Below are positions 11,200 to 36,034 of a stretch of DNA of 37,183 nucleotides, in pieces (the stretch's first letter is position 1; each line of letters opens with the position of its first letter). The DNA is taken from contig JAGBJY010000036.1 of the NCBI GenBank assembly GCA_017934185.1, positions 1-37,183 on the forward strand, given 5' to 3'. The notes under the pieces were generated by a model. It was not told the DNA's origin and ran no database searches. It saw nothing but the letters and a program-made list of their open reading frames with translations. Source of the stretch: Bacteroidales bacterium. GTDB lineage: Bacteria; Bacteroidota; Bacteroidia; Bacteroidales; UBA932. The position numbers and the translations under genes were made by a program.

Positions 11200-11747
11200 C
11201 CGTTTACAGCGGGAGCTTCAATCCCCTTCACATCGGCCATGAGGCCATTATCCGTTTCCTTACGGAGAAAGCGGATTTCGACCTTGTGTATCTGGTGGTT
11301 ACGCCGCAGAATCCCTTCAAACAGGCGCATACACACCCTACGGGGAAAGAGCGCTTCGATGCAGCCGTGGAAGCCATCGGCCGGCATCCGGAGCTTAAAG
11401 TGGTGGCGCAGGACTTGGAACTGTACATGGCTCCGCCGCAGTACACCATCCGTACGCTGGATACCCTGCATGAGCGGGAGCCGGAGCACGAATTCACCCT
11501 GGTTATCGGGGCCGACAACCTGGCCAATTTCGGCGGCTGGCGCTTTCATGAGCGCATCCTGCTGGACTATGGCGTAGTGGTTTTCCCCCGCAAGGGCTAC
11601 CACCGGGGCCATGCAAAAGCCCGGCTCCTGAAGGAGAATCCGGGCTATAAGATAAGGCTTCTGAAGGCTCCACTCGTCACCATCTCCTCAACAGAAATCC
11701 GCGAGGGCATTGCCGAGGGCCGCGACATGTCCGCCTGGCTGATGTAG
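11190..11747 (+). CDS. nadD: nicotinate-nucleotide adenylyltransferase
   Basis: NadD transfers AMP from ATP to nicotinate mononucleotide, the penultimate step of NAD synthesis. The 185-residue protein begins with the nucleotidyltransferase signature GSFNPLHIGH (residues 8-17) and ends with ISSTEIREGI, the second conserved ATP-binding motif of this family. FTLVIGADNLANFGGW in the middle is also typical. It starts inside the last codons of gmk and is probably expressed with it. Its stop codon is one base away from the stop codon of the convergent copper ATPase gene; I see no hairpin terminator between them. Confidence 0.95.
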   Translation: MRIAVYSGSFNPLHIGHEAIIRFLTEKADFDLVYLVVTPQNPFKQAHTHPTGKERFDAAVEAIGRHPELKVVAQDLELYMAPPQYTIRTLDTLHEREPEHEFTLVIGADNLANFGGWRFHERILLDYGVVVFPRKGYHRGHAKARLLKENPGYKIRLLKAPLVTISSTEIREGIAEGRDMSAWLM

Positions 11748-11748
11748 C

Positions 11749-20179: not shown

Positions 20180-20213
20180 AAAAAGGGGCCGGCCACTTTC
20201 ACCGACCGGCCCC
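20180..20213 (-). terminator. strong terminator closing the large lipoprotein locus
   Basis: On the minus strand GGGGCCGG (plus three further base pairs including G-U) pairs with CCGGCCCC around a 7-base loop, and is followed by five T. It lies 27 bases after the preceding lipoprotein gene and 13 bases before the SGNH start codon. Confidence 0.9.
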
Positions 20214-20239: not shown

Positions 20240-22078
20240 TTATTCGATGGTTATCTTGTAAATACTCTTCGTGCTCTTGTTTACAAGATACAGGTGGCTA
20301 TATGTACTGTCAAAGACCAAACCGTCAACACTGGTCAGCGCTCCACTTTCTGTAATGGTCATCAGCGTTCCGTCTTCCAGACCAGTTGCGCCACGAACCA
20401 GCTTTCTTACAGCGTAAGTGTCTGCAATATAAAGATTGCCAGAACCATCAAACTGCATCTGTAACATATTGGCAGAGAAAGCCGCCGACGAAGACTTCCC
20501 GTCAGCAAGCGCGGCATAATTGGCAGCTTTTGTCCCACTTCCGAAAATAGGCTCCGGTGTCGCACCCTTGGAGGCAACGCGATATAGTTTAAAGCATTCG
20601 GTTGGAGATCCGGACGAGGCGGAAACGGCCACCACCATAGACCCGTCAGTATCAAAGGCAAAAGACAAGGGCCAAACCTTTCCGGTAGACGCCGTTACCT
20701 TCGAAAAATCAGCAAATACTTCCGGGTCAACCTCTCCGGGGACACCGCCGGTATGCACATGGATCTTTCCGGCCGCACTTCCGTCTCCACGACCAAGGAC
20801 ATAGATACTGCCATTGTGTTCCTGAATCTGCATGGCCTGGTTGAATCCGGTAGAAACTATCGAATAGATTTCGGTAGTCCTGTCATATTTGTAGATGCCG
20901 TTCCCTGTAGCACCGACTTTATTGGCAATCCAAAGATTATTCCCGACACTGCAGACGCCATACGGATATTGGGGATATTTTGAAGCAGAATTAACAGCAG
21001 ATTGTGTGGCCGTTTTATTGACAACATCCAAGAAGAACACATGATAGGGTTCTCCTGTTACAACAAACAGATTGTCAGTGATTCTGGCCATATTATGCGG
21101 AGTACGGGTGAGACCGGAGATAATTGTCTCCACACTGTACTTCGTCAGCACGATGGCGGGCATGGGTTTGATGTGGGCGCGCTCAATCTGAACGTTGGTG
21201 GCATTTTTCTCGGAGCCGGGGACGGGGGTGCCGTCGTCAAAGGTCATCTTCACGTTCAGCTGTGGATAGACATGAGCGGTGCCGTCCATTTCAGGCCCTA
21301 CGGGCAGCGGGACATACACAGTGATGCCGTCGTCTGAGGCGCGCTGGGCAGCCGTTGCATTTTTGATATTCACGGTAACGGAATAGTTGCCGGTATGGGC
21401 ATAGGCCTGAACATAAGGAGTCTCCGAGCCAAATCCGCCTTCAGCGGTGGTCCAGTTGTAAGTTTTGCTCATGGTCTGGCAAATCTTGTACGTGTTCTTG
21501 CCCTCGGCAAGGAGCGCAGCATCCGTCACCGGCGCCGTAACCACCACCTTGGTGGCCTTAGGCGGCACATTTTTGTAGGTGAGCTTCAGAACTCCGCCCA
21601 ACTGCTTGAATTCAAGCGGCGTGGCAGAGCTGGTAACCTTGGCCAGCATAGGTGCCTCAACGTTGCCCTCAAACCAAGTATAGGTATCCTTGAGCACCAA
21701 CTTCAGCGAACCGTCTTCTTCCTTGGGATAGGCAGCCGCGCCCGTTCCACTGGTCTTGGCAGGATAGATGGCAAAAGAATTGTTGCCATAGGTGATGACA
21801 TCGCCCTCCGTATTGGGATTGAAAGCGGCCGGGCCGGCAGTGTCTTCGCCGGTGTATTTATAAACAGTGAAACCATTGGCATTGTTGCTGCGGACCACCA
21901 TATTGTCATTCTGTTTCCACATGTAGGTTCCGCCCACAAACGCTGTCTTGGTTTCGCTTTCGGCAAACGTAGCCGTAAGCGCTTTTTCAGATACGGGAGC
22001 GCTTTCCGGAAGGTTCTGCTCCTTATTGCAGGAAACTGCGCCCAGCACAAGCAGGGTAAAAATAAGTGTTTTCTTCAT
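20240..22078 (-). CDS. lipoprotein with fimbrillin-like domain and beta-propeller repeats
   Basis: The 612-residue product is a lipoprotein: the signal ends in the lipobox AVSC with C17. About residues 30-290 resemble the fimbrillin-like fold found in Bacteroidales surface proteins (TATFAESETKTAFVGGTYMW, then DVITYGNNSFAIYPA). The second half (about 300-612) has NHL-like propeller units (SFAFDTDGSMVV, MQFDGSGNLYIADTYAVRKL, VDGLVFDSTYSHLYLV). No catalytic motif is seen; a glycan- or protein-binding surface role is likely. It is a paralogue of the frameshifted gene two positions upstream, sharing the order of domains and the FKQLGGVLKL junction. It is the last gene before the strong terminator and has a GAGGAGGA ribosome-binding site. 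Confidence 0.8.
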   Translation of the reverse strand: MKKTLIFTLLVLGAVSCNKEQNLPESAPVSEKALTATFAESETKTAFVGGTYMWKQNDNMVVRSNNANGFTVYKYTGEDTAGPAAFNPNTEGDVITYGNNSFAIYPAKTSGTGAAAYPKEEDGSLKLVLKDTYTWFEGNVEAPMLAKVTSSATPLEFKQLGGVLKLTYKNVPPKATKVVVTAPVTDAALLAEGKNTYKICQTMSKTYNWTTAEGGFGSETPYVQAYAHTGNYSVTVNIKNATAAQRASDDGITVYVPLPVGPEMDGTAHVYPQLNVKMTFDDGTPVPGSEKNATNVQIERAHIKPMPAIVLTKYSVETIISGLTRTPHNMARITDNLFVVTGEPYHVFFLDVVNKTATQSAVNSASKYPQYPYGVCSVGNNLWIANKVGATGNGIYKYDRTTEIYSIVSTGFNQAMQIQEHNGSIYVLGRGDGSAAGKIHVHTGGVPGEVDPEVFADFSKVTASTGKVWPLSFAFDTDGSMVVAVSASSGSPTECFKLYRVASKGATPEPIFGSGTKAANYAALADGKSSSAAFSANMLQMQFDGSGNLYIADTYAVRKLVRGATGLEDGTLMTITESGALTSVDGLVFDSTYSHLYLVNKSTKSIYKITIE

Positions 22079-22092
22079 AGAGCCGTCCTCCT

Positions 22093-22275
22093 CTAAAAAA
22101 GACCAGGAATACCGGGGAACTCAGGAAGACCCGGGGCATTCCATGAACCGGGGCCATCTTCGGTCCATCCCTCAATACCGCCGTCGCCGGCGTTTAATCC
22201 GGATGCGCAGATCATCTGCTCTGCATGCAGCATCAATTCTTCTGAAAGAGGCTGCAGATACTTTTCCTTTTTCAT
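22093..22275 (-). CDS. 60-residue peptide with Pro/Gly-rich tail, unknown function
   Basis: The frame starting at the ATG at 22275 codes for MKKEKYLQPLSEELMLHAEQ and ends in a Gly/Pro/Asp/Trp-rich tail finishing PGLPEFPGIPGLF. A longer in-frame start at 22344 is rejected because it overlaps the upstream gene and lacks the MKKxxYxxP opening common to short Bacteroidales peptides in such loci. There is one Cys (MICASG) and no classical signal peptide or membrane segment. It sits between two related lipoprotein genes, 35 bases after the first and 14 bases before the second, so it is probably co-expressed. I cannot assign a function; a small secreted or structural peptide is possible. Confidence 0.65.
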   Translation of the reverse strand: MKKEKYLQPLSEELMLHAEQMICASGLNAGDGGIEGWTEDGPGSWNAPGLPEFPGIPGLF

Positions 22276-22310
22276 GTCTTGTGTTATTAAATTTTGATTA
22301 TTGTTTGATT

Positions 22311-24946
22311 CTATTGAAAGGCAAAATCCACCATCACGGGCCAATGGTCAGAGGGGTAATAAGCATTGTATGTATCGTCTATCACCTGATATTTCACTAC
22401 ATCCAGACCCGTATTGAAGTACAGGTAATCAATGCGGTGATACCATTTGCTGCGCTGGTCTTCCTCATAGCTGTATGCATTATAGGTGGCCACCGGTCCG
22501 CTCTTAACGCCCAAGTCGGCACTGCGGTAGTAGGCATCCGTAAACGCCGTTTTGAAATAGTCCGTATGGGCCCCCTCCGTGGTAGCGCTGTTCATGTCGC
22601 CCCCCAGAATCAGCGCATAGCTTTCCGGATTGAGGGTTTCGGCACGGTTACAGATGAGTTCGGCCGACAAGGAGCGCACGGTGACCGCTTCTTCCTCACT
22701 GATGGACGTTCCCGAACTGGTAACTTCCAGGTGCGTATTCAGATAGAAGAACTTGTAACCGCTCGCCCTGTCTTCCAACTTCACCCACTGACAGATACGC
22801 TTGCGGCCGGGATCGGTGGAAATCCATCCGGGATAGGGGCTGCTGGGGGTATCCGGTGTGGCAGAAAGATAGAAGTATCCCTTATCCAGTTCCACATATT
22901 TATCCGTTTTCCAGGCAAGACAGGGTTCTTCCGGTGTCTCATAGAAGGTATAGGCCGGGAGATTCTCTTTCAGGTAGGTTCTCTGTTCCGGCCGGCTTTC
23001 CTGGAACCCCACTACGTCAAAGGAATAGTCCTTGATTAACTGGACAACACCGGTCCGGCGGGAAGCCCAGCTGCGCTCCGCCGTATCTTTATCCGTCACG
23101 AAACGGATATTGAACGTGGCGGCACGGACCGTTGGAGCAGGGGTAACTGGGGCATCCGGCTCCCCGATGTACAGTTCCCGGATTTGCCCGGTTCCCTGGT
23201 CACTGATATACAAAGTAGAGCCGTCGCTGCTGAGCAGAAGGCCGCCCAGCTGGCGGAAGGTGGCCGCCGTGCCCACTCCATCCTGAACAGCCGCCATATT
23301 GGCCGCCTGAGAACTGCCGGCAACGGTGCTTACCACAGCATCGGAGTAGCCCGCAGCGCCCTTGCGGATTCTGCGGATCCGGTACCAGTCGGCAAGATAG
23401 ATATCACCATTGGGAGCAATGGCCAAATCGGCCAGGTTGGCAGTGAACTTGGCCGTAAGCGGACTTCCGCTTGTCCCGTCATCAAAGGCTTTGGCGTCTT
23501 TGATGCCGGCAATGACCTCAAAGGCTCCTGTTACAGGATTCACTTTGAGCAGCTGACAGCCGTTGGTCACCACCATCAGGTTCCCGTCGGCGTCAAAAGC
23601 CATGGCGTTGGGCCATTTGCCCAAATTGGCCTGCCATTCCGGGCTGGCTGTAAAATCCCCGCCGGAATACTTGTAGATGGTATTGAGGTCACGGACGGCA
23701 AGATAACCGTTCCCTTCCGCATCAAAAGCCACATCCATGGCGCTCTTCCCGTTCCAGGCACTCTGGGCGGCTATCTGGGCAAAACTCTTGTCCGACGGAT
23801 CAAAGGTGTAGACCTTGGCCTTGGCTTTCTCGGCAAACCAGACTTTTCCGTCGTGCAGGCATCCCAGCCAGGGCACGTGATTCGCATCACCATAGGTGTA
23901 AGGGGCCGACAGGGTACCGGCTTCCAGATCCCAGATACGCACGCTCTGGACCTGTTCCAGCACAAATGCCTGCTTGTCGGGGACAATCCATCCCATTCCG
24001 CGGACCGCACCCAGGACAGCTGACGACTTGTCGCCGCCTTTTTTGTCGGCCACGGCATTTTTTAGAGCGATGGTTCCCATCAGGGTTGTCACCGTCAGAG
24101 GGGACTTGAGTGCCGGATAGGCAATATCCTCCATCGGCTTGATGTGGGCCCTGTCCACCCGGATATTCCGGGCACTGCGCTGGGTGCCGGAGATCATATG
24201 CCCACCGGAATCCACCAGATAAATCCTTATTTCGGGATAAGTATGTTCACTGTCCGGCCCCACGGGAAGCGGGACATAGAACACTTTGGAAGTGGAAGAA
24301 CCGGCGGCAAAGGAGATGCCGATGAGGCCGTCTTCTCCCGCATAAGCCTGAATATAGGGTTGGGGCAGCGAAAAGCTTCCCTCCCAGCCGTGCACCGCCA
24401 TGTCTTTGGTAATGACGTATCCGGGAGTACACAGCATGAGTTTGGCCGCGGCGGCGGGAATATTGGTCAGGGATACTTTCAGCAAGCCCCCAGCTGGGTA
24501 AAGGACAGGTCAGTTCCGGAAACCAGGGGCGATATCATCGGGGCTTCGGCATTGCCTTCGCTCCAGAGATATTGGTTTTTAAGATTCAAGGTAAGGGCGG
24601 TTCCCGCAACTTGCACACTGCCCGGAGCCAGGGAAGGATACAGGGCAAAGCCTTCATCACCGTAGCGCAGGGCAGCCGAAGGGGTCTGCGTTTGAACAAA
24701 CGTTGCTTCACCGGAAGTATTGGGTCCTGCATAGCGCAAATCCAGGGTACTGCCGTCGGCCAGCGTGGCCCTGATACGGTCTCCGGTGCGCCACTGATAA
24801 ACAGCGCCGTCAAAACCGGTTTTGGTGTCCGGGTCTCCAAAAACCGCTCTCAGCACAACAGCATCCGTGGTCTGGGGCAAGTCGCTTTCCTTTTGGCAGG
24901 CCAGCGGCAGCAACAGGAGCGGAATCAGGTATAGAATGCGTTTCAT
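22311..24946 (-). pseudogene. frameshifted lipoprotein: fimbrillin-like domain, NHL propeller and EEP domain
   Basis: Two frames belong to one gene. The first (24479-24946, 155 residues) has a lipobox (PLAC, C17) and a fimbrillin-like start, and stops right after FTQLG. The second continues with LLKVSLTNIP and runs to 22311. In the 612-residue paralogue the same place reads FKQLG then GVLKLTYKNVP. The break falls on a run of five G (minus strand, plus-strand 24487-24491); one more G would restore an open frame of 878 residues. The rest holds NHL propeller units (about 300-595) and a C-terminal endonuclease/exonuclease/phosphatase domain (last about 275 residues) with VVGFQESR, NTHLEV, GGDMNS and a final SDHWPV, so its catalytic residues are intact. 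It may be a real mutation, a switchable tract or a sequencing error. Confidence 0.85.
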
Positions 24947-24950
24947 AGGC

Positions 24951-25898
24951 TCAGAGGGCAAAATCAACAATGATGGGAAGATGGTCTGAAGGATGGCAGA
25001 AGCCTTTGATTTCCGCATCCCGCACGGGTTGGGTATAAGCATCCAGGACAATCCGGGCGTCGGTGATGAAAGGATACAGGTCCGGCGTACAGAACACGTA
25101 GTCATAACGGGTGTTCTCTATGGTGGAAACCACTACCTCTTCCGGATTCCGGCGCTTGATAATGTCCCAGTAGGGAGTATGCTCATGCATATAGTCCTGC
25201 GCCTGAAACTTGGGGTCATCGGCCGGAAGCCCATACAAAGCATTGTCCGTGCGGGAGAGAGAGTTGAAATCGCCCATCATGAGCCAGTTCCCTTCTGTCT
25301 GCGAGCCGATGGTATGCTTGCATACGTATTCCACTTCCATCTTCCGGTAGGCATCGCCGCCATGGGCCGCTTTGGAGGCCTCCTGGTCTTCGGCACCAAA
25401 GGCATAAGGATGCGGCCAGGTATGGAGGGCGACAAAATTCAAGGTCTTCCCTTTTACCTGTACCTGCGCCCACAACGCGCCATGTGACACTACGCTGTCG
25501 GGCTGGACACCCACAATCTGCGCTTTCCCGTAAATGGGAGTCTTGGAAGTAATTACTTGGGGATAATTGTCCCGCATGCCGCCCACATAGACATATTTGT
25601 GTCCATAACGGGCGGCCAGTTCCGGCCAATGCTCTACCAGGTACTTCTCTTCCACCGGCATCTTGTCACGGGTGCCGTCATAGTAAATGGTACGGGCTTC
25701 GCACCATACGCAGACATCGGGATCCTGATCTTTCACCCAGTCTACAAAACGGTTGTAGTTGTCTCCCTGCCCGGACCACATTCCGTTCTGAATATTCCAC
25801 AGCAACAAACGGAAAGGCTCCCCGGATGTTGCCCGGGGGGCTTTGGGAGCACAGGCGGCGAGCAGCAGGGCGGCCGCCATGGGGATAAGTCTTTTCAT
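24951..25898 (-). CDS. EEP-family phosphatase/phosphodiesterase lipoprotein
   Basis: The 315-residue lipoprotein (lipobox LAAC, C16) is a member of the endonuclease/exonuclease/phosphatase fold, metal-dependent enzymes that cleave phosphoester bonds in nucleic acids, lipids or sugar phosphates. The active-site set is visible: N35 in LLLWNIQNG, E67 in VWCEAR, H159 in VALHTW, D210 and N212 in MMGDFNS, and D305-H306 in HPSDHLPIIV. The membrane anchor places it outside the cytoplasm, so nucleic acid repair is unlikely, and cleavage of a phosphodiester in a glycan or lipid is a better guess. It overlaps the preceding gene by ATGA and is followed 4 bases later by the frameshifted gene that carries a second, different EEP domain. 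Confidence 0.88.
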   Translation of the reverse strand: MKRLIPMAAALLLAACAPKAPRATSGEPFRLLLWNIQNGMWSGQGDNYNRFVDWVKDQDPDVCVWCEARTIYYDGTRDKMPVEEKYLVEHWPELAARYGHKYVYVGGMRDNYPQVITSKTPIYGKAQIVGVQPDSVVSHGALWAQVQVKGKTLNFVALHTWPHPYAFGAEDQEASKAAHGGDAYRKMEVEYVCKHTIGSQTEGNWLMMGDFNSLSRTDNALYGLPADDPKFQAQDYMHEHTPYWDIIKRRNPEEVVVSTIENTRYDYVFCTPDLYPFITDARIVLDAYTQPVRDAEIKGFCHPSDHLPIIVDFAL

Positions 25899-27139
25899 CG
25901 GATGCTCACTTTTCGGATAAGGCAGTTCTGCGAATCGCAGATATACAGGGTATTCTCATCGTACACCAGAACGCCGTCCACTTCATTGAACTTGGCATTC
26001 AAGCCTTTTCCGTCGGCATAACCTTTGGTGCCGCCCAGGATGGTTTCCACGGTACCCTTGGTATAATCACCGTTTTCGTCCGGCGTGAGTTTGCGCACGC
26101 AGTGGTAGGCGGCATCGCCAACATAAATGGTTCCGTCCGGAGCAATGTCAAAGCCCTGACAGGAGCGTACGGTGGCCTTCAGGGGATCTCCTTCGCCATC
26201 ATTCCTCTCGTCGGTCTTCTCTCCGGTACCCATGATGACGGTTTGCGTGCCGTCGGGAGCAACCGACACCAGCACGAAACCATTCCACAACGCCGCAATC
26301 AGGTTGCCCTTGGGATCAAAGCCGATGAAAGAGGGTCCGCCAGTTTCAAATTTGGCATATTCGCTCTTCTCCATGGTCCCGGCGGCAAATTTGTACACAA
26401 TCTGCGCATTCCGGCAGGGGACATAGATATTGCCATCGTCGTCAATGGCCACGTTCATGGGATTGTTCAAGCCGGTGGCCATCACGTCGTTTTTCTTGGT
26501 GGCGGGATTGAAACGGTAGAGCTTTCCTTTAGCCTTGTCATTGTACCAGTAATTTCCCTGCGCGTCAAAACAGCCTTGCCATACGGCAGCTCCGCTTTCC
26601 TCAACGGCGGCTTCGCTGGTCACGCTCATGTCAGGAGCGATGTGACGGATTTTATTGCCGCCACGGTCTGTAAACCACAGCGTACCGTCGGCCGCCTTGT
26701 TGATTCCTGTGGGCATATAAGTGGCGGCACCGGTACCCACACCGTCAATACACTTACGCACACCCTGTTGTCCCACAATTGTAGACACCAGGTATTCATG
26801 GTCGGGAATCTTCAGATAATTGAACTGGACTCCTTCGGCCTTCCCTGAAGGGGCCTCCACCATAAAGGTGTACAGGCCCGGCTCATGTTCGGGCAAAATA
26901 ACCAGAAGGCGGTTGGTATAGGCTTCCAGCACCCTGGCACGCTCTCCGCCCACCGTGACTACATTCTCTGAGGGATCGGTGGAAAAGTTGTTTCCCAGCA
27001 GGGTTACCAAATCTCCGGGATACCCGTTCTTGGGGTCTACCGACACCAGGCGGACATCCGTTACGCGCGCCACGTATTTATTCTGCTGGCAGGAAGCCAG
27101 CGAAAGCAGTGGAAGCAGAATATATAGAATCTTTTTCAT
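25895..27139 (-). CDS. TIG-domain and NHL-propeller lipoprotein
   Basis: The 414-residue lipoprotein (lipobox SLASC, C17) has one IPT/TIG immunoglobulin-like domain at about 28-110 (VSVDPKNGYPGDLVTLLGNNF is its start). An NHL-type beta-propeller of about 290 residues follows (INKAADGTLWFTDRGGNKIRHI, VAIDDDGNIYVPCRN, FDIAPDGTIYVGDAAYHCVRKL). Such proteins lack known catalytic residues and usually bind ligands at the cell surface. It lies 3 bases after the larger TIG-NHL gene and overlaps the next EEP gene by 4 bases. By position after SusD it may act as a surface glycan-binding protein, which is an inference. Confidence 0.85.
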   Translation of the reverse strand: MKKILYILLPLLSLASCQQNKYVARVTDVRLVSVDPKNGYPGDLVTLLGNNFSTDPSENVVTVGGERARVLEAYTNRLLVILPEHEPGLYTFMVEAPSGKAEGVQFNYLKIPDHEYLVSTIVGQQGVRKCIDGVGTGAATYMPTGINKAADGTLWFTDRGGNKIRHIAPDMSVTSEAAVEESGAAVWQGCFDAQGNYWYNDKAKGKLYRFNPATKKNDVMATGLNNPMNVAIDDDGNIYVPCRNAQIVYKFAAGTMEKSEYAKFETGGPSFIGFDPKGNLIAALWNGFVLVSVAPDGTQTVIMGTGEKTDERNDGEGDPLKATVRSCQGFDIAPDGTIYVGDAAYHCVRKLTPDENGDYTKGTVETILGGTKGYADGKGLNAKFNEVDGVLVYDENTLYICDSQNCLIRKVSIR

Positions 27140-27142
27140 GGC

Positions 27143-28933
27143 TTAGTCAATGAGGATTTCACGAATGAGGTAGGCATTGTACTCGGTGACAATCAAGCGT
27201 TTGCCGCTGGGATCCATCCGGATTTCACCGGGCGAATTGAAGCTGGCCTCCAGGCCGGCGCCATCGGTTTTTCCACTCTTACCGGAGGTGCCGGCTATAG
27301 TGCTCACCACGGCATCTTCATAGCCATTCTCACCGCGGGTGATAAGCTTGATAATCTTAAAGGAATCATCGGCCACATAAATATTGCCATCCTTGTCGAG
27401 GGTCATACCGAAGAGGTTGGATCCGAATTTTGCCGTGAGCGGTTTGCCGGGATCACCGGGATCATTGGCCTTTCCTGCACGGATACCGGCAATCACGAAC
27501 TGGGTGCCGTCCGGCTTCACGCCGATTACCTGGCAGCCGTTGGTGGTGACAATCAGATTGCCCTCCGGATCAAACTCCATGGCCAGCGGCCCATCGGCAA
27601 AGGTAGTGAATGTTTCCAAGGTGGACAGGTCGTCCCCCGTTGCCTTGAAAATAGTCTTGGAACCGTCGCGGACCAGCACGTAGGCATTGCCTGCGGCATC
27701 AAAGGCTACATCCATCGGCGAGGTGCCGGTGAAGGTAGCCGTAAGCACTTCGGCAACGTCAGTCTTGTAATTATAACGGATAATCTTGTCGTTACCCTTA
27801 CTGGCATAATAGAACCAGTCTCCGTGCATGGCACCTCGCCAACCTGCGTTGGAAATGGACTTGGTGGCCGTGCTGGAGGTTACGTCCCAGGTACTCATGT
27901 CCATGAAACGCATGCAATTGTTGCCATTGTCCAGGATGGCCAGGCGCCCGTCCGGCAGGAAGGCTACACCGCGGGGCTGACGGAACTTGGCCACGGTGGG
28001 GCCACCATCAACAAGGGTCGTGGCATCGGCCGCACGACCGGCCGAACCGGACATGGTTTTCACCGTATAGGTATGCGATTTGGCCACATACATGAAGGCC
28101 GGTCCCTCGAAGGTCTTGTCGCCTACGGTTACAACCACAGGATAGGAACCGCGGGGATTCTCGGGAATCTTTACGGACAGCTTGGTAGTGGTAGCAGAGA
28201 GCACCTCGGCCTGGACGCCATTCAGGGTAACCGTGTTCTCAGAGGGGACCCCACTGAAACAAATGCCGTCCAGCACCACAATGTCTCCCTCCGAACCGCT
28301 GTTGGGTGTTACACTGAATACAGTCAGTTCGGGTTTCTTGTTATAGGTAAACATCGGACCTGTCACCGTTTCTCCTTCCACAGTGACCTCAAAAGGATAC
28401 TGCCCTTCCGGATTGTCCGGCAGAACAACCACCAGCCTGCTGTCATTGGCAGAAACTATCTCTGCCGCCAGACCGTTGATGCTTACACTGTTGCGTTCCT
28501 TCTTATTGGAGAAAAGCTGGCCGCTGATGGTAATCTGATCCCCTTCTATGCCCGAAGTGGGGCTGTAGGAGAAAACGGCCAGTTTCTCCTGCTCTACCGG
28601 TTCGGCATAACGGAAGGAAAGCCCCTCCAGCACAACGCCCCCGGTATTGACATTCACAACAGCAGTACCCAGCTCATGTTCGGGCATCAGGATATAAATC
28701 CGGTCGTTCGTAACCGATTTCACCGATGCTTGAACGCCGTCCACCGCAACGGTGAGGGGTTCGGTAAACCCATACCCAGAAATCACGGCTTCCGTGCCCG
28801 GATATCCCGCTTTAGGTATCAGAGAGAGCACCTTAGGCTTCGGGGCACTGGGAGTAACGGGCTCTTGATGGCAGGAAGCAGCCACAAGCAGGGCCGATGC
28901 CGCCAATACACTATATATAACAAACTTTTTCAT
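27143..28933 (-). CDS. lipoprotein with three TIG domains and an NHL propeller
   Basis: The product has 596 residues from the ATG at 28933; an upstream in-frame start at 28963 would hide the lipoprotein signal (lipobox VAASC, C21). Three IPT/TIG domains follow in tandem (about 32-118, 119-207, 208-290), each opening with a PxxG pattern such as LIPKAGYPGTEAVISGYGF. The C-terminal half is an NHL propeller with MDVAFDAAGNAYVLVRDGSK, MEFDPEGNLIVTTNGCQ and KDGNIYVADDSFKIIKL. Two of these units closely match the propeller of the frameshifted gene (the TNGCQ unit and the VAFDA unit), so they are relatives. It starts 2 bases after the phosphodiester glycosidase gene. The role is probably surface binding and presentation of substrate. 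Confidence 0.87.
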   Translation of the reverse strand: MKKFVIYSVLAASALLVAASCHQEPVTPSAPKPKVLSLIPKAGYPGTEAVISGYGFTEPLTVAVDGVQASVKSVTNDRIYILMPEHELGTAVVNVNTGGVVLEGLSFRYAEPVEQEKLAVFSYSPTSGIEGDQITISGQLFSNKKERNSVSINGLAAEIVSANDSRLVVVLPDNPEGQYPFEVTVEGETVTGPMFTYNKKPELTVFSVTPNSGSEGDIVVLDGICFSGVPSENTVTLNGVQAEVLSATTTKLSVKIPENPRGSYPVVVTVGDKTFEGPAFMYVAKSHTYTVKTMSGSAGRAADATTLVDGGPTVAKFRQPRGVAFLPDGRLAILDNGNNCMRFMDMSTWDVTSSTATKSISNAGWRGAMHGDWFYYASKGNDKIIRYNYKTDVAEVLTATFTGTSPMDVAFDAAGNAYVLVRDGSKTIFKATGDDLSTLETFTTFADGPLAMEFDPEGNLIVTTNGCQVIGVKPDGTQFVIAGIRAGKANDPGDPGKPLTAKFGSNLFGMTLDKDGNIYVADDSFKIIKLITRGENGYEDAVVSTIAGTSGKSGKTDGAGLEASFNSPGEIRMDPSGKRLIVTEYNAYLIREILID

Positions 28934-28935
28934 AT

Positions 28936-29886
28936 CTAGGGTTCGTTGACAGTTACCATCCACGTATTCACGACAGGCCGCTGAGCACCGTCAGAAGCAC
29001 GGTTGCGCAGCTGATAGATATCGGCCGACGGATGCCGGATAACCAGTTGCGCGCTGCCGCCACCGTCCAGATTGGAGGCCCAGCTGCACCCCAGGCTTTT
29101 CATAATCTCACCCATCTCCCAATAAAGCATACCGTCCGACCACAGGGGCTGACGCCCGTCCACAATCATGAAATACACAGTATTTCCATCCTCAGAATAA
29201 CCCACCACATTGCGCGGGTGCCTGTTGGTGGAATAGCCGGAGAAATCACCGGGCACTTCGCCGTTCTGCAGGACAATGACACCGCTGCCGGTGACATCCC
29301 TCAGGTCCGGAGCAAGGACGCGGTAGGTTACCGTATCCCTGATGACCGGTTTTCCGTCAAAGTCCAAACCGAAGAAACTGATGGCCTGGTCTGTGAGCGT
29401 AGAGGAATAGACAAAGCTGTCCTTGAGCACCCGGCCGTTCCGGTGGATGGGCCCTCTGATTTTTCCGTTGGAAGTATCCCAGAAGTCGGCATTCACTACA
29501 GCTACCACCCTTTGACCGGGCTTGTCCACATATTCAATCATGTCGGAGGGGGTCTGCCGGCTGCCTATCACATAAGAATCCAGGTCATAGGGCATACCCA
29601 CTTTCATTTTCACTCCGGGCTCGGCCAGGTTGACCCGCAGGATGAACACATGCTCTACTTTGGCAAGGGATGTCTGAAGATGGATATCGGTTTCATCCAC
29701 ACCATTGGCAATGACAAATGTGGTATCGGCATATACATGCCCAACCGATGCGGCTGTAGCCACCTTCTTTCCCAATTCCGTTCTGGGAACATAGTCGGTA
29801 TCCGGAATGTCCTGCGGTCCGGCAGGAAGTTTCTTACAGGCAATGAGGCCTGTGAAGAACAACGCGAGATATAAATATCTTTTCAT
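28936..29886 (-). CDS. phosphodiester glycosidase (NAGPA/DUF2233) lipoprotein
   Basis: The 316-residue lipoprotein (lipobox LIAC, C17) matches the family of the human uncovering enzyme, which removes GlcNAc from a GlcNAc-1-phospho-6-mannose diester; bacterial members share the fold. Conserved-looking blocks are VVNADFWD (131-137), NRHPRNVVGY with R225, VDGRQPLWSDGM with D243 and R245, NLDGGGSAQLV (272-282) and RPVVNTW (303-309). The catalytic domain therefore appears whole. It follows SusD by 4 bases with a GGAGGA ribosome-binding site and precedes the TIG-NHL gene by 2 bases. It is the strongest pointer to a phosphodiester-containing substrate for this locus. The exact sugar-phosphate bond is not known. 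Confidence 0.9.
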   Translation of the reverse strand: MKRYLYLALFFTGLIACKKLPAGPQDIPDTDYVPRTELGKKVATAASVGHVYADTTFVIANGVDETDIHLQTSLAKVEHVFILRVNLAEPGVKMKVGMPYDLDSYVIGSRQTPSDMIEYVDKPGQRVVAVVNADFWDTSNGKIRGPIHRNGRVLKDSFVYSSTLTDQAISFFGLDFDGKPVIRDTVTYRVLAPDLRDVTGSGVIVLQNGEVPGDFSGYSTNRHPRNVVGYSEDGNTVYFMIVDGRQPLWSDGMLYWEMGEIMKSLGCSWASNLDGGGSAQLVIRHPSADIYQLRNRASDGAQRPVVNTWMVTVNEP

Positions 29887-29890
29887 AGGG

Positions 29891-31195
29891 CTATTCCTCC
29901 GTATCTTGGGTTGTAGCAGTCCAGAGCGGGTGCTGTTTCAACAATTTGTTCAGGGTAAGCTCACGGGAAGGGATGGGCTGCACCGTGTATTTTGCGTCCA
30001 CGCCCACCGTCTGTTCGTATTTTCCGGTACGGACAAGGTCAAACCAGCGGAAGCCCTCACCGAACAGTTCCAGGCGGCGCTCATTGAGCACGGCATCCAA
30101 AAACGCTTCCTCCGTGGCAGGATGGACATCAGGAAGGCCGCGGAAACGGCGAAGCTCATTCAGCCGGTCAATACCCAGGGCCAGCCCCTTGCTTTCCGCG
30201 CTGATGAGATACATCTCGGCAAGCCTGGTAATGTAGATGGGATCATGGCCGGCGTCCCCCATACAATACTTGTTCACAACATTGTTGCTTCCCTGGATAT
30301 CCACAGAAACGTTGCGGCGCTTGTCAATATGTTCAAACATATCCATGGCCGCCTGGGTAGGACAGAAAGTATAACTGCCGCCCACCGGAGATTCTTTCGT
30401 ATAATAGTAGGAGCCGATATTATAGCTCCCTTCCTCCAGCAGGTTGGCAAAAGTGAAGATTTCTTCCCGGTTGGCAACGCCACGGAAAATCTCAGAGAAA
30501 TCGGCCAGGGCAAAACGTCCGCAAGTAATCAGTTCTTCGGCCAGTTGAGCCGCCTCTGCCTTTTTCCCCATGGCAAGATATGTACGGGCCAGAAGAGCCT
30601 TTGCGGCATCCTTGGACACGTAATTCTTGGTGGTAAAATCGGGAGCCAGCTCGACGGCAGTCTTAAACTCAGACTCGACGAACTTCCATGCGTCCGCCTC
30701 GGGCGTCTGCTCAATGTCCTCAGAAATAATCTTATCTACAATGGGCACATTTCTCCAACGGGCCACGATATTGTAATAGTACAGTCCGCGGAAGAAATGG
30801 CCGGTTCCCAGCATCTCATTCTTTTTCACCGAATCGGGCAGTTTCTCCACAGAGAGAATAAAATTGTTAATCTGATACATGCCGGCATAGTACCCATTCC
30901 ACGGACCGCTTACCATGGAATTGTCGGGGCCGATGGCACCCTGTACAACCAGTGCGGGCGTGTTGGTGGAAGTGGCACCGGGACGGATAAGGTCTCCGCC
31001 GATAATGTCAAACATGGCCCAGCCATTGAAAGTAGGCTTATACTGGGCGATATTGTACACACCTACCATAAGCATTTCTGCATCGTCCTCCGTAAGATTG
31101 TCACTGGAGACTGCGTTATGCGGATATTGGTCCAGGAATTTTCCACAGGAGACCAAGGCCACTACAGCAACTATTATAAAAATGTATTTTTTCAT
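29891..31195 (-). CDS. SusD/RagB-family nutrient-binding lipoprotein
   Basis: SusD-type proteins form the lid over the SusC pore and bind the glycan at the cell surface. This lipoprotein (lipobox ALVSC, C17) has 434 residues, which is on the short side for the family (often about 500-600). Typical features are CGKFLDQYPHNAVSSDNL after the lipidation site, a tetratricopeptide-like helical region (KDAAKALLARTYLAMGKKAEAAQLAEEL) and the C-terminal LNERRLELFGEGFRWFDLVR, the standard SusD ending block. It starts 5 bases after the SusC stop. The shorter length may mean fewer loops around the ligand site. Confidence 0.95.
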   Translation of the reverse strand: MKKYIFIIVAVVALVSCGKFLDQYPHNAVSSDNLTEDDAEMLMVGVYNIAQYKPTFNGWAMFDIIGGDLIRPGATSTNTPALVVQGAIGPDNSMVSGPWNGYYAGMYQINNFILSVEKLPDSVKKNEMLGTGHFFRGLYYYNIVARWRNVPIVDKIISEDIEQTPEADAWKFVESEFKTAVELAPDFTTKNYVSKDAAKALLARTYLAMGKKAEAAQLAEELITCGRFALADFSEIFRGVANREEIFTFANLLEEGSYNIGSYYYTKESPVGGSYTFCPTQAAMDMFEHIDKRRNVSVDIQGSNNVVNKYCMGDAGHDPIYITRLAEMYLISAESKGLALGIDRLNELRRFRGLPDVHPATEEAFLDAVLNERRLELFGEGFRWFDLVRTGKYEQTVGVDAKYTVQPIPSRELTLNKLLKQHPLWTATTQDTEE

Positions 31196-31200
31196 AACGC

Positions 31201-34200
31201 TCAGAATTTAAGATTGATACCGAACGTAAAGGAACGCGGCTGGGGAATCCACATGCAGTCAAGACCCATCTTAGTGGCATTCAGGGAGGTGTTCACTTCC
31301 GGATCCAGGAAACGGAAGGGAGAGAGGAGCCATACATTGTCGCCCTGCACGTAGATGCGAAGCTTATCCACACCGATGCGCTTGGTCAGATTCTTGGGCA
31401 GGGTATACCCCAACGAGACACTTCTCAGACGCAGATAAGACGCATCGTGCAGGAAACGGGTATTCTTGAACATGGTGGAATTCCAGGTATATCCATAGAT
31501 GGCGCGGGGCGTAGTGTTGGTGGTGCCGGGACCTGTCCAGCGCGCCAGCGCTTCCGACTCCTGGGCAGGCCAGTTTCCGTTACCCAGACGAAGACCGCCC
31601 GTCCAGTACTCATACAACTTTGAGCCATAGGAGAAGGTAAAGAAGACGTTGAAATCCAAGCCTTTGTACGTAAAAGAGTTATTGAAACCGCCTGTAAACT
31701 TGGGATTGGGCGAGCCCACGAACTGACTGTCATAGGCCGAGTTGATGTCTCCGTCAGGCTCTCCGTTAGGACCCGAGACATCTTCATAGATAACGTCACC
31801 GGCGCGGACCCCGTAATTCTCATACAGATACGTGGGGACCTCTTCGTCACTCTGGTAAATGCCCAGCATCTTGATCATATAGAAACTGCCCACTTCCTCT
31901 CCCACTTTCAAGGCATGATAGTCGTCGGTTCTGAGAATTTCATCTTCACCAATCAGCGATGTGAGCTTGTTCCGGACAAAAGAGATATTGAAGTCGCCTT
32001 TCCAATGAAAATCGTGTTTCCCGAGATTCCCGCCTACGGCAAATTCAAGGCCCTTGTTGCGCATGGAGCCGATGTTGCAGGTATAATTGGTAAAACCGGT
32101 GGTGGCAGCAGTAGGCTTCGAGTACAGAAGGTTACGGGTGTCTTTCAAGAAAGCATCGACCGTGAAAGTGAGGGCGCCGGAGAAGAAGGAAAGGTCTGTA
32201 CCGATATCATACTGGTCGGCCTTCTCCCATTCCAATTCCCGGTTTCCCTGCGTCATAACCGCCAGGCCATTCTTGTTCATATAGTTATAACCACCATTGG
32301 CCAGGGACTGATAGGCATAAGAGCCGATGCCCCCCTGGTTACCCGTGGCACCATAACTCACACGGAGTTTGGCGTTGGTGGTTTTGAATTGCCAGAATGG
32401 CTCTTCAGACAGGTTCCAACCCAGCGAAACTGAGGGGAAGAAGCCGTAACGGTGTTCCGGTGCAAATTTGGACGAGCCGTCATATCGGGCGTTGACGGTT
32501 ACCAGATAACGGTCTTTCCAGTTAACGGTGGTTCGAAACATGAACGACTGCAGTCCCCAAGTGGAAAGGCCCGTGGTAACATCGGTAAACTCGGCGGCAA
32601 CGGAGTTGACGTCAAACGATTTGGAAGGGAATCCCTGTCCTTTCTGATAGGCCGTTGAATTGTTGTCAAGCTGGAAAGAATGTCCCAGCATGGCGCTTAG
32701 CGACAGGCCGCCGAAGGTATGGCTGTAATCCAGGATATTGTCCACCACAATGGATGTAAAGTTCTTACGGGAGTCAATCAGGACACCCACAGAATTTCCG
32801 TACATGTGGTCTGCCGTGTACTGCACGTGGTCTTCGGCCGCCATGATATCTCCGCCAAAACTGGTCTTGAAGTGTAAGTCTTTGGAGAAGTTGATGCGCG
32901 CAAAGACACTTCCATATGCACGGTAGCTTTTATTGTAAACATTCTGCTCATTGATGGCCTGCACCAGATTGTAGTGCAACAGTTCCGCGTTGATGATTGT
33001 ATAGGAACCGTCCGGTTTGAACGGTGTATCCCAGGGGCGGTGTTCCAGCCCATGGGTGAGCATGGAGGTGCCGATGCTTCCGTCCGGAACGCGGTTGGCA
33101 TTGGTATAACTGAAATTCAGGGAGGCTCCAACAGAAAGCCAGCGCCTGACATCGCTGTTGACATTGGCTTTCACCCCATACTTTTCATACAGGCTTCCAA
33201 TCCCCACACCTTCGTTCTGCTTGGCACTGGCAGACACATAGTAATTGCTGTTTTCGGAACCTCCGGATACAGAGACATTGGCGCTCCAACTTTTGGCCAC
33301 ACGGAAAACCATATCCAACCAGCTGAATTGCGGTTTACCGGGGTATGGATTCTCCAAACGGGCTATAGAGCTTCCTGTCTGCATATTATAGTTGTCAATG
33401 GCCTCATTCTGCACTTCCAGGTACAGGTCGGCATCAGCCACCTTCAGCTTGGAAAGATTTGGGAGATAACTGAGGCCGAAGTTGGCATCGGCCGAAAGTT
33501 TTGGAGCCCCTTTTGTTCCTTTCTTCGTGGTGATGATGATAACACCATTGGTACCACGGGACCCATAGATGGCCGCAGAAGCCGCATCCTTGAGCACCTG
33601 TACCGACTCTATATCGGCAGGATTGATATCCGACAAGCCGGAAAGAGACTCTCCCCCCCAGGCCCCGGTATCTCCGGAGGTATTGCTCATGGGAATTCCG
33701 TCAATTACATACAAGGGCTCGTTCCCCGCAGTGAGCGAGCCGATACCACGGATGCTTACACGGCTCTTTCCGCCGGGCGTTCCGGAGGCGGCGGTGACAT
33801 TCACACCGGGCACACGGCCCTGAAGCATGGCATCGGGGCTGAGGACCTGGCGTTCCCCTTCTTCTGCCGGCTTGTATGTGGCAATGGCGGATGTAATGTC
33901 GCGGCGCTGCATGGTACCATAACCCACCACAACAGACTCCTCCAGCAACGTTATGTCGTCCAGAAGCCGGATAGAGAGCTTGTCGGTCTGGGAGCCCAGA
34001 GGCATACGCACCTCTTTATATCCCATCATACTGATTAGCAGGACATCTCCTTTTCTGGCAGGAATGGAGAAAGAGCCATCCACGCCTGTTGTGGCCACTT
34101 CCTTACTTTCTTCCACTACCAAAACCGCCCCTATTACCGGTCCGTCTTTATCAAAGACTTTTCCGGAATAGGTTTGGGGCGTGGACTCCGTGTTTTGTTT

Positions 34201-34497
34201 TCTCACAATCAGGATCATGCGATCCTTGATGCGGGCCTCACAGGCAGTGCCTTCAAGAAGAAGGGAAAGCGCCTGTGTGAGTTTCTTGCCGCTGGGTACG
34301 GAAACGGTTTTTCCAAGATCCAGCAGGTCTTCATTGTACGCGATGGAGTATCCGCTTAGTTGCTCCACTGTCTTCAGCGCTTCGGAAAGGGTCATCCGGC
34401 TTTTGGGGAAATTGATGACCGGTTCCTCCTGCGCATACAGCAATGAAGACAAAAGCATGCTCAAAAGCATACATGTCAGCATTACAGTCTTTCTCAT
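31201..34497 (-). CDS. SusC/RagA-family TonB-linked outer-membrane transporter with STN domain
   Basis: This 1098-residue protein imports the ligand captured by SusD through a beta-barrel, powered by TonB. After the signal peptide (about 1-22) there is an STN domain (about 30-100, SEALKTVEQLSGYSIAYNED), which contacts a FecR anti-sigma factor. Then come a carboxypeptidase-regulatory-like domain (about 112-190), the SusC signature SVVVGYGTMQRRDITSA, and a plug with YVIDGIPMSN and DIESVQVLKDAASAAIYGSR. The barrel ends in FTFGINLKF. The STN domain together with fecR and the sigma gene directly upstream shows that this transporter also signals: ligand passage should release the sigma factor and induce the locus. 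It follows fecR by 16 bases. Confidence 0.96.
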   Translation of the reverse strand: MRKTVMLTCMLLSMLLSSLLYAQEEPVINFPKSRMTLSEALKTVEQLSGYSIAYNEDLLDLGKTVSVPSGKKLTQALSLLLEGTACEARIKDRMILIVRKQNTESTPQTYSGKVFDKDGPVIGAVLVVEESKEVATTGVDGSFSIPARKGDVLLISMMGYKEVRMPLGSQTDKLSIRLLDDITLLEESVVVGYGTMQRRDITSAIATYKPAEEGERQVLSPDAMLQGRVPGVNVTAASGTPGGKSRVSIRGIGSLTAGNEPLYVIDGIPMSNTSGDTGAWGGESLSGLSDINPADIESVQVLKDAASAAIYGSRGTNGVIIITTKKGTKGAPKLSADANFGLSYLPNLSKLKVADADLYLEVQNEAIDNYNMQTGSSIARLENPYPGKPQFSWLDMVFRVAKSWSANVSVSGGSENSNYYVSASAKQNEGVGIGSLYEKYGVKANVNSDVRRWLSVGASLNFSYTNANRVPDGSIGTSMLTHGLEHRPWDTPFKPDGSYTIINAELLHYNLVQAINEQNVYNKSYRAYGSVFARINFSKDLHFKTSFGGDIMAAEDHVQYTADHMYGNSVGVLIDSRKNFTSIVVDNILDYSHTFGGLSLSAMLGHSFQLDNNSTAYQKGQGFPSKSFDVNSVAAEFTDVTTGLSTWGLQSFMFRTTVNWKDRYLVTVNARYDGSSKFAPEHRYGFFPSVSLGWNLSEEPFWQFKTTNAKLRVSYGATGNQGGIGSYAYQSLANGGYNYMNKNGLAVMTQGNRELEWEKADQYDIGTDLSFFSGALTFTVDAFLKDTRNLLYSKPTAATTGFTNYTCNIGSMRNKGLEFAVGGNLGKHDFHWKGDFNISFVRNKLTSLIGEDEILRTDDYHALKVGEEVGSFYMIKMLGIYQSDEEVPTYLYENYGVRAGDVIYEDVSGPNGEPDGDINSAYDSQFVGSPNPKFTGGFNNSFTYKGLDFNVFFTFSYGSKLYEYWTGGLRLGNGNWPAQESEALARWTGPGTTNTTPRAIYGYTWNSTMFKNTRFLHDASYLRLRSVSLGYTLPKNLTKRIGVDKLRIYVQGDNVWLLSPFRFLDPEVNTSLNATKMGLDCMWIPQPRSFTFGINLKF

Positions 34498-34513
34498 AGA
34501 GATTGTTTATTAT

Positions 34514-35422
34514 TTATTTTATGTAGATTACATTATTTTGGGAACGGGTATACCGCATGGAGGGCACTACGGAGCAAATGGCATCCAGAAGTTCATCTAC
34601 GGTTTCACCATGAATAAACCGGGCACTGATCTTTGCATTGTCATATTTGTCGGTAGTTAAAAACACCTCCACCCCATAACGGCGTTGAATTACCCGAATA
34701 ATATCATGGATGGATTCTGAACGGAAACAAAGGTTTCCCCCTTCCCAGGACATGGTTTCTGCCGAATTGGAATTACCACTGACTATAGCACCCGTGGCGC
34801 GCTCAAAACTGAAAAACTGCTCCGGCTGAAGCTCCACCAGTCTTTCGGGGGATGTTTTGGGCCATGCGGCTATGGCTCCCCGGTTGAGGGTGGCCGTAAC
34901 CAAAGGATCATCATAATAGGCTTTAACGTCAAAACGGGTTCCGTGAACACGGACAGTAATATCTGACGTCTCCACATAGAAAGGTTGCTCATCAGAAGCT
35001 GTTACGTCAAAGATGCCTTCGCCTGACAGGAAAACTTTTCTTTCGCCGGTAAACCTGTCCGGGAAAATCAATACCGACTGAGCGTTCAGAATAACGCGGG
35101 ACTGGTCTGGAAGAATGACTTCGGCGGTTTCCCCACACGAAGTGGAGCGCTGTACATAATTTACAGCCACCTGTTGTTCCGGCAAGGTCTTGTGTGCATA
35201 TCTTACAGAAAGATACGGAACAAGAATCAGGGTACATACCGCTGCAACTGTCATTACAGTGCGCAGCAGGAAGGATTTTCTTCTCCTGCGCTCTTTGTCA
35301 AGGTAATCCTCCAGCGCCCGTGAGCGCATCATGACTTCCTCAAAAGCCCGGTCAATTTCCTCTTGGGAGATGGCGGAACCATCAATATGATCCCATCCGG
35401 GAAAATTAGTGTAATTAATCAT
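34514..35422 (-). CDS. FecR-type anti-sigma factor
   Basis: FecR proteins span the inner membrane and hold the ECF sigma factor until the outer-membrane transporter signals. The 302-residue product has a cytoplasmic N-terminal part (about 1-50, ending in the basic run RRRRK), one transmembrane helix (about 51-72), a FecR domain (about 90-200, with VILPDQSRVILNAQSVLIF and VRVHGTRFDVKAYYDD) and a C-terminal domain of the DUF4974 type (about 220-302). The start at 35422 gives the full N-terminal segment. Its start codon lies in the loop of a perfect 11-bp inverted repeat, and a strong terminator separates it from the sigma gene, so its expression may be controlled independently. Confidence 0.93.
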   Translation of the reverse strand: MINYTNFPGWDHIDGSAISQEEIDRAFEEVMMRSRALEDYLDKERRRRKSFLLRTVMTVAAVCTLILVPYLSVRYAHKTLPEQQVAVNYVQRSTSCGETAEVILPDQSRVILNAQSVLIFPDRFTGERKVFLSGEGIFDVTASDEQPFYVETSDITVRVHGTRFDVKAYYDDPLVTATLNRGAIAAWPKTSPERLVELQPEQFFSFERATGAIVSGNSNSAETMSWEGGNLCFRSESIHDIIRVIQRRYGVEVFLTTDKYDNAKISARFIHGETVDELLDAICSVVPSMRYTRSQNNVIYIK

Positions 35423-35444
35423 GCGAAAAGCTTTTACACTAATT
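35404..35444 (-). repeat. 11-bp inverted repeat around the fecR start codon
   Basis: AATTAGTGTAA (35404-35414) and TTACACTAATT (35434-35444) are perfect complements separated by 19 bases that include the fecR start codon (35420-35422). In the mRNA this would form a stem-loop with AUG in the loop; as DNA it could be an operator. The spacer also holds part of the palindrome AAAAGCTTTT (35426-35435). Confidence 0.7.
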
Positions 35445-35449
35445 AGACG

Positions 35450-35470
35450 AAAAAAGGGGGCCTTGCCCCC
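35450..35470 (-). terminator. terminator between the sigma factor gene and fecR
   Basis: On the minus strand GGGGGC pairs with GCCCCC around AAG, followed by six T: a near-ideal intrinsic terminator 18 bases after the sigma gene stop codon. Confidence 0.93.
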
Positions 35471-35488
35471 AAGAGAAAAACAAAAATT

Positions 35489-36034
35489 TTATAGGAAAAC
35501 AGCGATACAGGAGGTTATTTTTCTCAATTCCCGCAACGCCGCATTCAAATGATTCTCCACCGTTTTTTTGGTAATTCCCATCCGAAGGGCGATTTCCTCG
35601 TTGCTTAACCCCTCTTTCCGTGAAAGCAGGAAGACCTGTTTCCTTTTTTCCGGCATCTTCTCTACCTGACGGTCCATCTGGAACTGACGCTCTCTTGCAA
35701 AATACTCTTCATCCAGCGGATATGAGAACGGCTCATCGGCCGGTTCTTCAAAGGGAACCTTAATTTTATGGGTGCGGCCATAATCAATGGCGGCATTCCG
35801 GCACATCCTGTACAGATAGGCTCCGATGGCATGAATTTTTGACAGAGATGCTCTCCTGAGCCATATTTTGACAAAGAGATTCTGGGCAAGATCCCTTACT
35901 TCGTTTTCGTCCCGGATCAGGGGCATCAGAAACGTTACCACCTTGGGATAATAATAGTCGAAAAGCTTCCGAAAAGCCTCTTCGTCATTCCCCCGGGAAA
36001 TCTGTTCCAATATTTTCGCTTCATCTGTGAGCAT
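35489..36034 (-). CDS. ECF-type sigma factor (FecI-like)
   Basis: The 181-residue protein is an extracytoplasmic-function sigma-70 factor that should direct RNA polymerase to the locus once freed by FecR. Region 2 is seen at about 22-95 (FRKLFDYYYPKVVTFLMPLI, EVRDLAQNLFVKIWLRR) and region 4 at about 120-172, with the helix-turn-helix GLSNEEIALRMGITKKTVENHLNAAL. The two conserved ECF domains and the adjacent fecR and STN-bearing susC place it in the FecI-like group of Bacteroidales glycan loci. A TACATTTG box ends only 4 bases before the ATG, so the mRNA may be nearly leaderless. It is probably transcribed alone, because a strong terminator follows. Confidence 0.95.
   Translation of the reverse strand: MLTDEAKILEQISRGNDEEAFRKLFDYYYPKVVTFLMPLIRDENEVRDLAQNLFVKIWLRRASLSKIHAIGAYLYRMCRNAAIDYGRTHKIKVPFEEPADEPFSYPLDEEYFARERQFQMDRQVEKMPEKRKQVFLLSRKEGLSNEEIALRMGITKKTVENHLNAALRELRKITSCIAVFL

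Follow-up and report, generated by a model that had tools for sequence, protein, structure and literature searches.

A Sus-type locus of a Bacteroidales bacterium with NAGPA-family and EEP proteins, a candidate system for using glycans with glycosyl phosphodiesters

The minus strand of a 37,183-nucleotide contig from a rumen Bacteroidales bacterium (GenBank assembly GCA_017934185.1, contig JAGBJY010000036.1; hereafter the window, which is contig 31 of a 62-contig, 2.13 Mb assembly with a completeness of 85.8%) carries a Sus-type locus in which a sigma factor, an anti-sigma factor and a SusC/SusD pair are followed by a NAGPA-family lipoprotein, propeller lipoproteins and two EEP domains. We put at about even chances the reading that this locus serves to use a glycan containing glycosyl phosphodiesters, which the encoded proteins would first uncap and then dephosphorylate. 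Fungal mannan, protozoan surface glycans, capsules and teichoic acids all contain sugars linked through phosphate. The reading draws on features observed directly, namely gene content, gene order and its conservation, active-site motif residues and a recurrent neighbourhood of NAGPA and phosphoesterase genes. Each component family is known.

Family profiles, including a Pfam scan of 28 open reading frames (ORFs) of the window, place the genes of the core in the order given by an earlier note on this DNA, all on the minus strand:

35489..36034, minus strand: ECF sigma factor (PF08281, 54 bits; PF04542, 38.1 bits; Sigma70 r2/r4)
34514..35422, minus strand: FecR-type anti-sigma factor (PF04773 and PF16344; FecR, FecR_C)
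31201..34497, minus strand: SusC/RagA TonB-linked outer membrane protein (TIGR04056, 828.9 bits; TIGR04057, 64.6 bits)
29891..31195, minus strand: SusD lipoprotein (PF07980 and PF14322)
28936..29886, minus strand: NAGPA-family lipoprotein (PF09992, 115.9 bits, cut-off 25; lipobox LIAC by eye)
27143..28933, ATG at 28933, minus strand: TIG(x3)-NHL propeller lipoprotein (PF01833, 99.1 bits, 3 stretches; NHL)
25895..27139, minus strand: second TIG-NHL propeller lipoprotein (PF01833 and TEN_NHL)
24951..25898, minus strand: EEP1, a divergent EEP lipoprotein (PF03372, 25.9 bits, marginal against the cut-off of 24.5)
22311..24946, minus strand: fusion of an N-terminal domain, an NHL-like propeller and a C-terminal EEP domain (EEP, 42.1 bits, in 22311-24485; one frameshift)
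22093..22275, minus strand: small conserved ORF of 60 codons (positional conservation; no Pfam match)
20240..22078, minus strand: last core lipoprotein (related to the fusion's N-terminal domain and propeller; no Pfam family)

Adjacent SusC and SusD genes with sigma factor and FecR genes beside them are traits of a Sus-type locus; an N-terminal STN-like region of SusC scored 25.1 bits, under the Pfam cut-off of 28.4. From SusC to EEP1 the genes run without a break, as the earlier note had described, with intergenic gaps of 5, 4, 2, 3 and −4 nt (the gap of 2 presumes the ATG at 28933). No glycoside hydrolase family was matched in the Pfam scan between the sigma factor and the last lipoprotein, in agreement with the remark that no ordinary glycosidase lies in the core. 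The gene list of the note holds for the genes that it named; the small ORF had been missed, and a frameshift in the fusion gene has to be added. This gene starts with the ATG at 24946 and has a one-base frameshift inside a G-run at ∼24491, which may reflect a fault of the assembly or a true mutation. A reading as two separate genes (24479-25105 and 22311-24485) was rejected in favour of one frameshifted gene; the frame is open in the relatives L037, L038 and L041.

Loss of this order in close relatives had been named beforehand as an observation that would count against the note's reading, and the order was found to be kept. Scanning genome contigs yielded 21 loci (L033 to L053), from which a distant outlier (L053), three Bacteroides loci (L048-L050) and three loci on short contigs (L036, L042 and L043) were set aside. 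The other 14, all rumen loci, span the genes from the sigma factor to the last lipoprotein (incomplete in L040 and L051, where the stretch ends) and form seven clusters at 97% NAGPA nucleotide identity. Gene order is kept in them with small exceptions: the sigma factor gene is reversed in L046 and L047, EEP1 is missing from L046, and NAGPA is truncated in L047. SusC is split in L035 and the fusion gene in L047, and the counterpart of the fusion is a stand-alone EEP gene in L045 and lacks the N-terminal domain in L046. The truncated NAGPA gene of L047 reads in frame into the next TIG/NHL lipoprotein gene, signal included (10001-12646); because the downstream lipoprotein keeps its own signal, this joint ORF is probably a deletion or an assembly fault, and we rejected it as evidence of linkage. 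Stretches L058 and L114 lie on a different contig from L046 and were left out. The locus is rare, and patchy among relatives. At 1e-20, a match to NAGPA was found only in the organism's own genome among 393 genomes of the order, and of three genomes of the same genus sampled for NAGPA, two gave no match at 0.001 and one gave weak matches, the best at 6e-15.

The NAGPA protein of the window carries some but not all of its conserved residues in common with the animal uncovering enzyme. An alignment profile matched the solved DUF2233 protein 3ohg (presumably B. ovatus BACOVA_00430) at 1e-105, with the row of 3ohg itself, from the Bacteroides locus L068, forming part of the profile, and matched chains of the animal enzyme at 2e-13 to 2e-11; the window protein alone matched 3ohg at 5.9e-16 and animal NAGPA structures at ∼2e-5. 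Residues N132, R225, D243 and D274-G-G-G-S278 are common to it and the animal chains (6pki, 6pkg, 6pku and 6pky), whereas the window protein, unlike the animal enzyme, is a lipoprotein encoded in an operon. The other NAGPA gene of this genome lies on contig 18 (L113, 2581-14261), in a run with genes for GH2, GH20, DUF4855, an NagP-like MFS protein, NagA (above cut-off) and an NagB-like protein, which has the look of an N-acetylglucosamine (GlcNAc)-type operon. Thus, in this organism the NAGPA fold also accompanies GlcNAc catabolism.

The two EEP domains differ in their affinities. The nearest solved relatives of the fusion EEP domain are 3mpr, 4c1r, 3g6s and 3l1w, with E-values of ∼1e-20 to 4c1r and 3mpr; it shares the motif residues of 4c1r, which was deposited as a mannosyl-6-phosphatase, and differs in being fused to a propeller. 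We take 4c1r and 3mpr to be BT3783 from the system with which B. theta uses yeast mannan. Since alpha-mannan families GH76, GH92 and GH99 define the yeast mannan polysaccharide utilisation locus (PUL) and none of them was found among the 28 window ORFs scanned, we rejected the idea that the window carries such a locus. EEP1 was not assigned to the mannosyl-6-phosphatase group: its sequence found no relative in the PDB at an E-value of 0.001, its profile gave a weak best match to 2v0s (E 0.053), which we assume to be a retrotransposon endonuclease, and a profile comparison with the fusion reached 68.6% probability in the C-terminal part only. Nine EEP1 sequences, that of the window included, nevertheless share N35, E67, H159, D210/N212, D266 and S304-D305-H306. 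Five of 392 other genomes of the order contain relatives of EEP1 at 1e-15. In one of the five the relative lies in a SusC-SusD locus that has another EEP gene (L112, 4306-15494); this locus also encodes DUF5689/BACON proteins, the seeds used found no NAGPA in it, and it appears to be another EEP-type PUL.

Downstream of the core lies a further set of genes, which the earlier note had described as a second unit with an SGNH hydrolase, a family 3 enzyme and a transporter of the organophosphate-antiporter type, and which the profiles confirm:

20185..20213, minus strand: terminator-like hairpin after the core (11 pairs and a T-run; pattern match only)
19085..20167, first ATG 20167, minus strand: SGNH hydrolase with GxDLY domain (PF14606, 117.3 bits; PF14607, 107.1 bits; Lipase_GDSL_3)
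17100..19088, minus strand: GH3 enzyme (PF00933, PF01915, Fn3-like; signal peptide-like N-terminus by eye)
15837..17093, minus strand: MFS protein, organophosphate antiporter type (TIGR00881, 255.1 bits, cut-off 407.75; GlpT 1pw4, E 2.8e-50)

The hairpin at 20213-20185, ahead of the SGNH ATG at 20167, fits a split of the core and the SGNH/GH3/MFS genes into two units; a second one lies 3′ of the sigma factor gene (35470-35456), also a pattern match only, and the pattern gave 30 matches in all against a mean of 20.3 in shuffled sequence. SGNH follows the core in 9 of the 12 loci long enough to show it; GH3 comes after SGNH in all four loci looked at, and MFS then follows in three of them (once as two ORFs). 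The MFS protein is nearest to the PgtP, UhpC and GlpT models and scores below their cut-offs, the best score among the 25 of 28 matches listed being that of TIGR00881. Its R29 and the arginine of ISRYAV align with R45 and R269 of GlpT (1pw4), which we take to be phosphate-site arginines, and a K and an H match as well. Upstream of the sigma factor, close to the window end, a PDDEXK_9 protein is encoded at 36136-37179 (minus strand).

Loci of the genus Bacteroides suggest that the phosphoesterase beside NAGPA may be exchangeable. In B. xylanisolvens XB1A (L048) the order is kept from the sigma factor through FecR, SusC, SusD and NAGPA (53%) to the second TIG/NHL protein; a GDPD protein with DUF4996 then replaces both EEP proteins, carrying the HRG..EN motif and standing where they stand in the window, and a reversed SGNH gene follows. 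The small ORF and the last lipoprotein were not found there by the searches used. Orthologous NAGPA loci occur in 4 of 60 Bacteroides-genus genomes, with GDPD nearby in three. Across these 60 genomes, PF09992 at 1e-8 gave 55 matches in 27 genomes, forming 43 clusters, and neighbours were recorded within 10 kb. Of 33 calcineurin-type MetallophosC genes, 13 lay this near to NAGPA (0.25 expected under random placement); the figures were 14 of 37 (0.31 expected) for GxDLY-SGNH and 5 of 100 (0.75 expected) for GDPD, and 18 of the 43 clusters had MetallophosC or GDPD in range. Fusions of calcineurin-like phosphoesterase domains to NAGPA in other bacteria are reported in a preprint (PMC11188070). A control at the level of PULs used the SusD loci of two genomes (150 of 190 SusD matches listed, nearby ones merged); among the matches listed, a phosphoesterase lay within 15 kb in 3 of 6 NAGPA PULs and 7 of 129 others (P 0.005), and GxDLY in 4 of 6 and 4 of 129, respectively.

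Ten proteins from 40 Bacteroides contexts were scanned with Pfam. NAGPA occurs with DUF5018, GHL10, calcineurin-type and SASA proteins in L063, with BACON proteins in L062 and L068, and as a long protein with GDPD and SGNH in L064. The NAGPA protein of L064 and L074 has ∼1100 residues and lies with GDPD, FecR and SusC, with SGNH in L064. L068, the PUL of 3ohg, has the same order of sigma factor, FecR, SusC, SusD and NAGPA and the same PF09992 family as the window; it differs in having two NAGPA proteins (23-27% identical to that of the window), a BACON protein and DUF6528, and, unlike the window locus, gave no match to TIG/NHL, EEP or the small ORF. PULs with NAGPA are in themselves not new, L068 being an example.

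In the pathway that we infer, with activities, surface location, signalling and substrate all predicted, SusD and the TIG/NHL lipoproteins would bind the substrate at the cell surface, and the NAGPA lipoprotein would hydrolyse the bond that joins the anomeric carbon of a capping sugar to phosphate, leaving a phosphomonoester. The propeller-anchored EEP domain, akin to the mannosyl-6-phosphatase, could take off the exposed phosphate, EEP1 might cut a second type of phosphoester, and the trimmed chain would enter through SusC. The SGNH protein may deacylate and the GH3 enzyme trim the chain, and the MFS protein would import released organophosphate, if any. Substrate binding would also signal through SusC, FecR and the sigma factor to switch the locus on. 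A sugar-1-phospho-sugar diester (phosphomannan-like, or GlcNAc-1-phospho-hexose) seems to us a likelier substrate than a glycerol-phosphate polymer, with fungi, protozoa or bacterial surface polymers as its source.

Several observations weigh against the use of a phosphodiester glycan by this locus. PF09992 owes its name to the animal enzyme, and the columns of D134, H223 and R245 of the NAGPA protein, conserved in 11 or all 12 of the aligned rows, differ in that enzyme; sugar-1-phosphodiester hydrolysis is a predicted activity here. The COG title for NAGPA relatives in a table of one paper (PMC5114307) is 'exopolysaccharide biosynthesis protein', which suggests, as far as that table goes, that members of PF09992 need not all be catabolic. 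In the ten Bacteroides genomes searched for EEP, none of 72 cases lay within 10 kb of NAGPA (0.7 expected), and we rejected EEP as a general partner of NAGPA in that genus; within 15 kb, among the matches listed, EEP was near 0 of 6 NAGPA PULs and 6 of 129 others (within 10 kb, 0 of 5 and 4 of 130). Beside four of the five distant EEP1 relatives no SusCD or NAGPA gene was found in stretches of 14.5, 6.9, 20 and 8.4 kb, two of these contigs being only 6.9 and 8.4 kb long and three of the four genomes belonging to one genus. Such relatives occur outside loci of this kind, and EEP1 is not upheld as a marker gene of the system. The orthologous Bacteroides locus of genome G467 (93% NAGPA) has no GDPD nearby. 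The neighbourhood counts themselves call for caution: random placement makes a weak null, as all of these genes may tend to lie in PULs, genomes of one genus share loci and are not independent, and two of the six NAGPA PULs at 15 kb (G476, 371504 and 395877) belong to a single NAGPA cluster. With a range of 10 kb the control was weaker, among the matches listed, with a phosphoesterase in 2 of 5 NAGPA PULs and 7 of 130 others (P 0.036) and GxDLY in 0 of 5 and 5 of 130. The phosphodiester-glycan reading of the earlier note is supported in part: it gains from synteny, the GDPD exchange, the MetallophosC and GDPD enrichment, the mannosyl-6-phosphatase affinity and the GlpT-like residues, and loses from the behaviour of EEP genes in Bacteroides and of the distant EEP1 relatives.

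With GDPD in the place of the EEP proteins in B. xylanisolvens and an MFS protein that resembles GlpT, glycerol-phosphate polymers stay candidates. The locus might scavenge teichoic acid, capsule or another such polymer, with NAGPA removing or cutting a sugar-1-phosphate linkage, phosphodiesterases freeing glycerol phosphate and the MFS protein importing it. The exchange in B. xylanisolvens, the glycerol-3-phosphate transporter 1pw4 as the best solved relative of the MFS protein, and the calcineurin-type enzymes near NAGPA, whose superfamily includes the teichoic-acid degrading PhoD according to the same preprint (PMC11188070), all speak for this alternative. We nevertheless think it unlikely, since no GDPD family was matched among the window ORFs scanned, the fusion EEP domain is nearest to a sugar phosphatase, and the MFS protein stays under the equivalog cut-offs among the 25 of 28 matches listed. 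Furthermore, no MFS match was found in ∼3 kb past the core in L045 and L046, in ∼13 kb past it in L047 (L059), or next to GH3 in L055.

A second alternative dispenses with a single pathway: in a mixed glycan PUL, NAGPA would be an ordinary alpha-glycosidase and the EEP proteins surface nucleases or phospholipases scavenging phosphate. The EEP superfamily includes nucleases and lipases, and the weak best PDB match of EEP1 (2v0s) would suit this idea, as would the separation of EEP and NAGPA genes in Bacteroides, the occurrence of PF09992 there in loci with GHL10, SASA, GH3 or BACON proteins, and the NAGPA paralogue of the same genome that sits with GH2 and GH20. Set against it are the tight conserved order, a different phosphodiesterase at the same position in B. 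xylanisolvens and a NAGPA-phosphoesterase neighbourhood that exceeds random placement, and we regard this alternative, too, as improbable. A system for phospholipid or inositol-phosphate head groups (glycerophosphoinositol, anchors of the glycosylphosphatidylinositol type) is very unlikely: EEP folds include inositol phosphatases and a His_Phos_2 phosphatase gene adjoins L046, but this gene is on the opposite strand in one locus only, no phospholipase family was matched among the core proteins scanned, and there is no specific pointer to inositol.

Aside from the predicted enzymes, the core contains related propellers and a small ORF. The propellers of the fusion, the last lipoprotein and the first TIG/NHL protein are paralogous, judging by their alignments: the last lipoprotein (20240-22078) and the fusion share 25% identity in an alignment of 497 columns (E 2e-29), and the propellers of the first TIG/NHL protein and of the fusion are 36% identical across 283 columns. 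The earlier description of several propeller lipoproteins holds for the TIG/NHL proteins and the fusion; no Pfam family matched the last lipoprotein, which is called a propeller because of its alignment with the fusion. A putidacin-lectin match of this protein (E 0.007) was put aside as noise. The small ORF at 22093-22275, which separates the fusion gene from that of the last lipoprotein, matched no Pfam family, and relatives carry ORFs of 47-51 codons in its place. Shared motifs are Y..P near the start, C(A/G)(S/T), and G(L/I)E with a run of acidic residues after it that closes at or close to W. In 1.50 Mb of partly overlapping sequence this pattern gave 12 distinct matches, 11 at the same place and one elsewhere; of the 14 rumen loci that span the core, 13 have it, and the 14th (L033) has a shorter ORF with the motif. 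Third codon positions vary most in three comparisons at moderate divergence.

The use of a phosphodiester glycan by the window locus, if correct, would single out two enzymes open to assay together with a group of PULs whose phosphoesterase is exchangeable, and it would point to a possible source of bacterial uncovering enzymes. In the literature on NAGPA or phosphodiester glycosidase together with PULs we found no account of Bacteroidota cutting such bonds for food, most subscription journals lying outside the search. More tentatively, and leaning somewhat against it ourselves, we suggest that NAGPA PULs may form a general class that feeds on glycosyl-phosphodiester glycans by a two-step process at the surface, with EEP, GDPD or calcineurin-like proteins as exchangeable phosphoesterases and a conserved small protein added in the rumen branch. 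If so, the chemistry of lysosomal mannose-6-phosphate uncovering would have been put to use for feeding.

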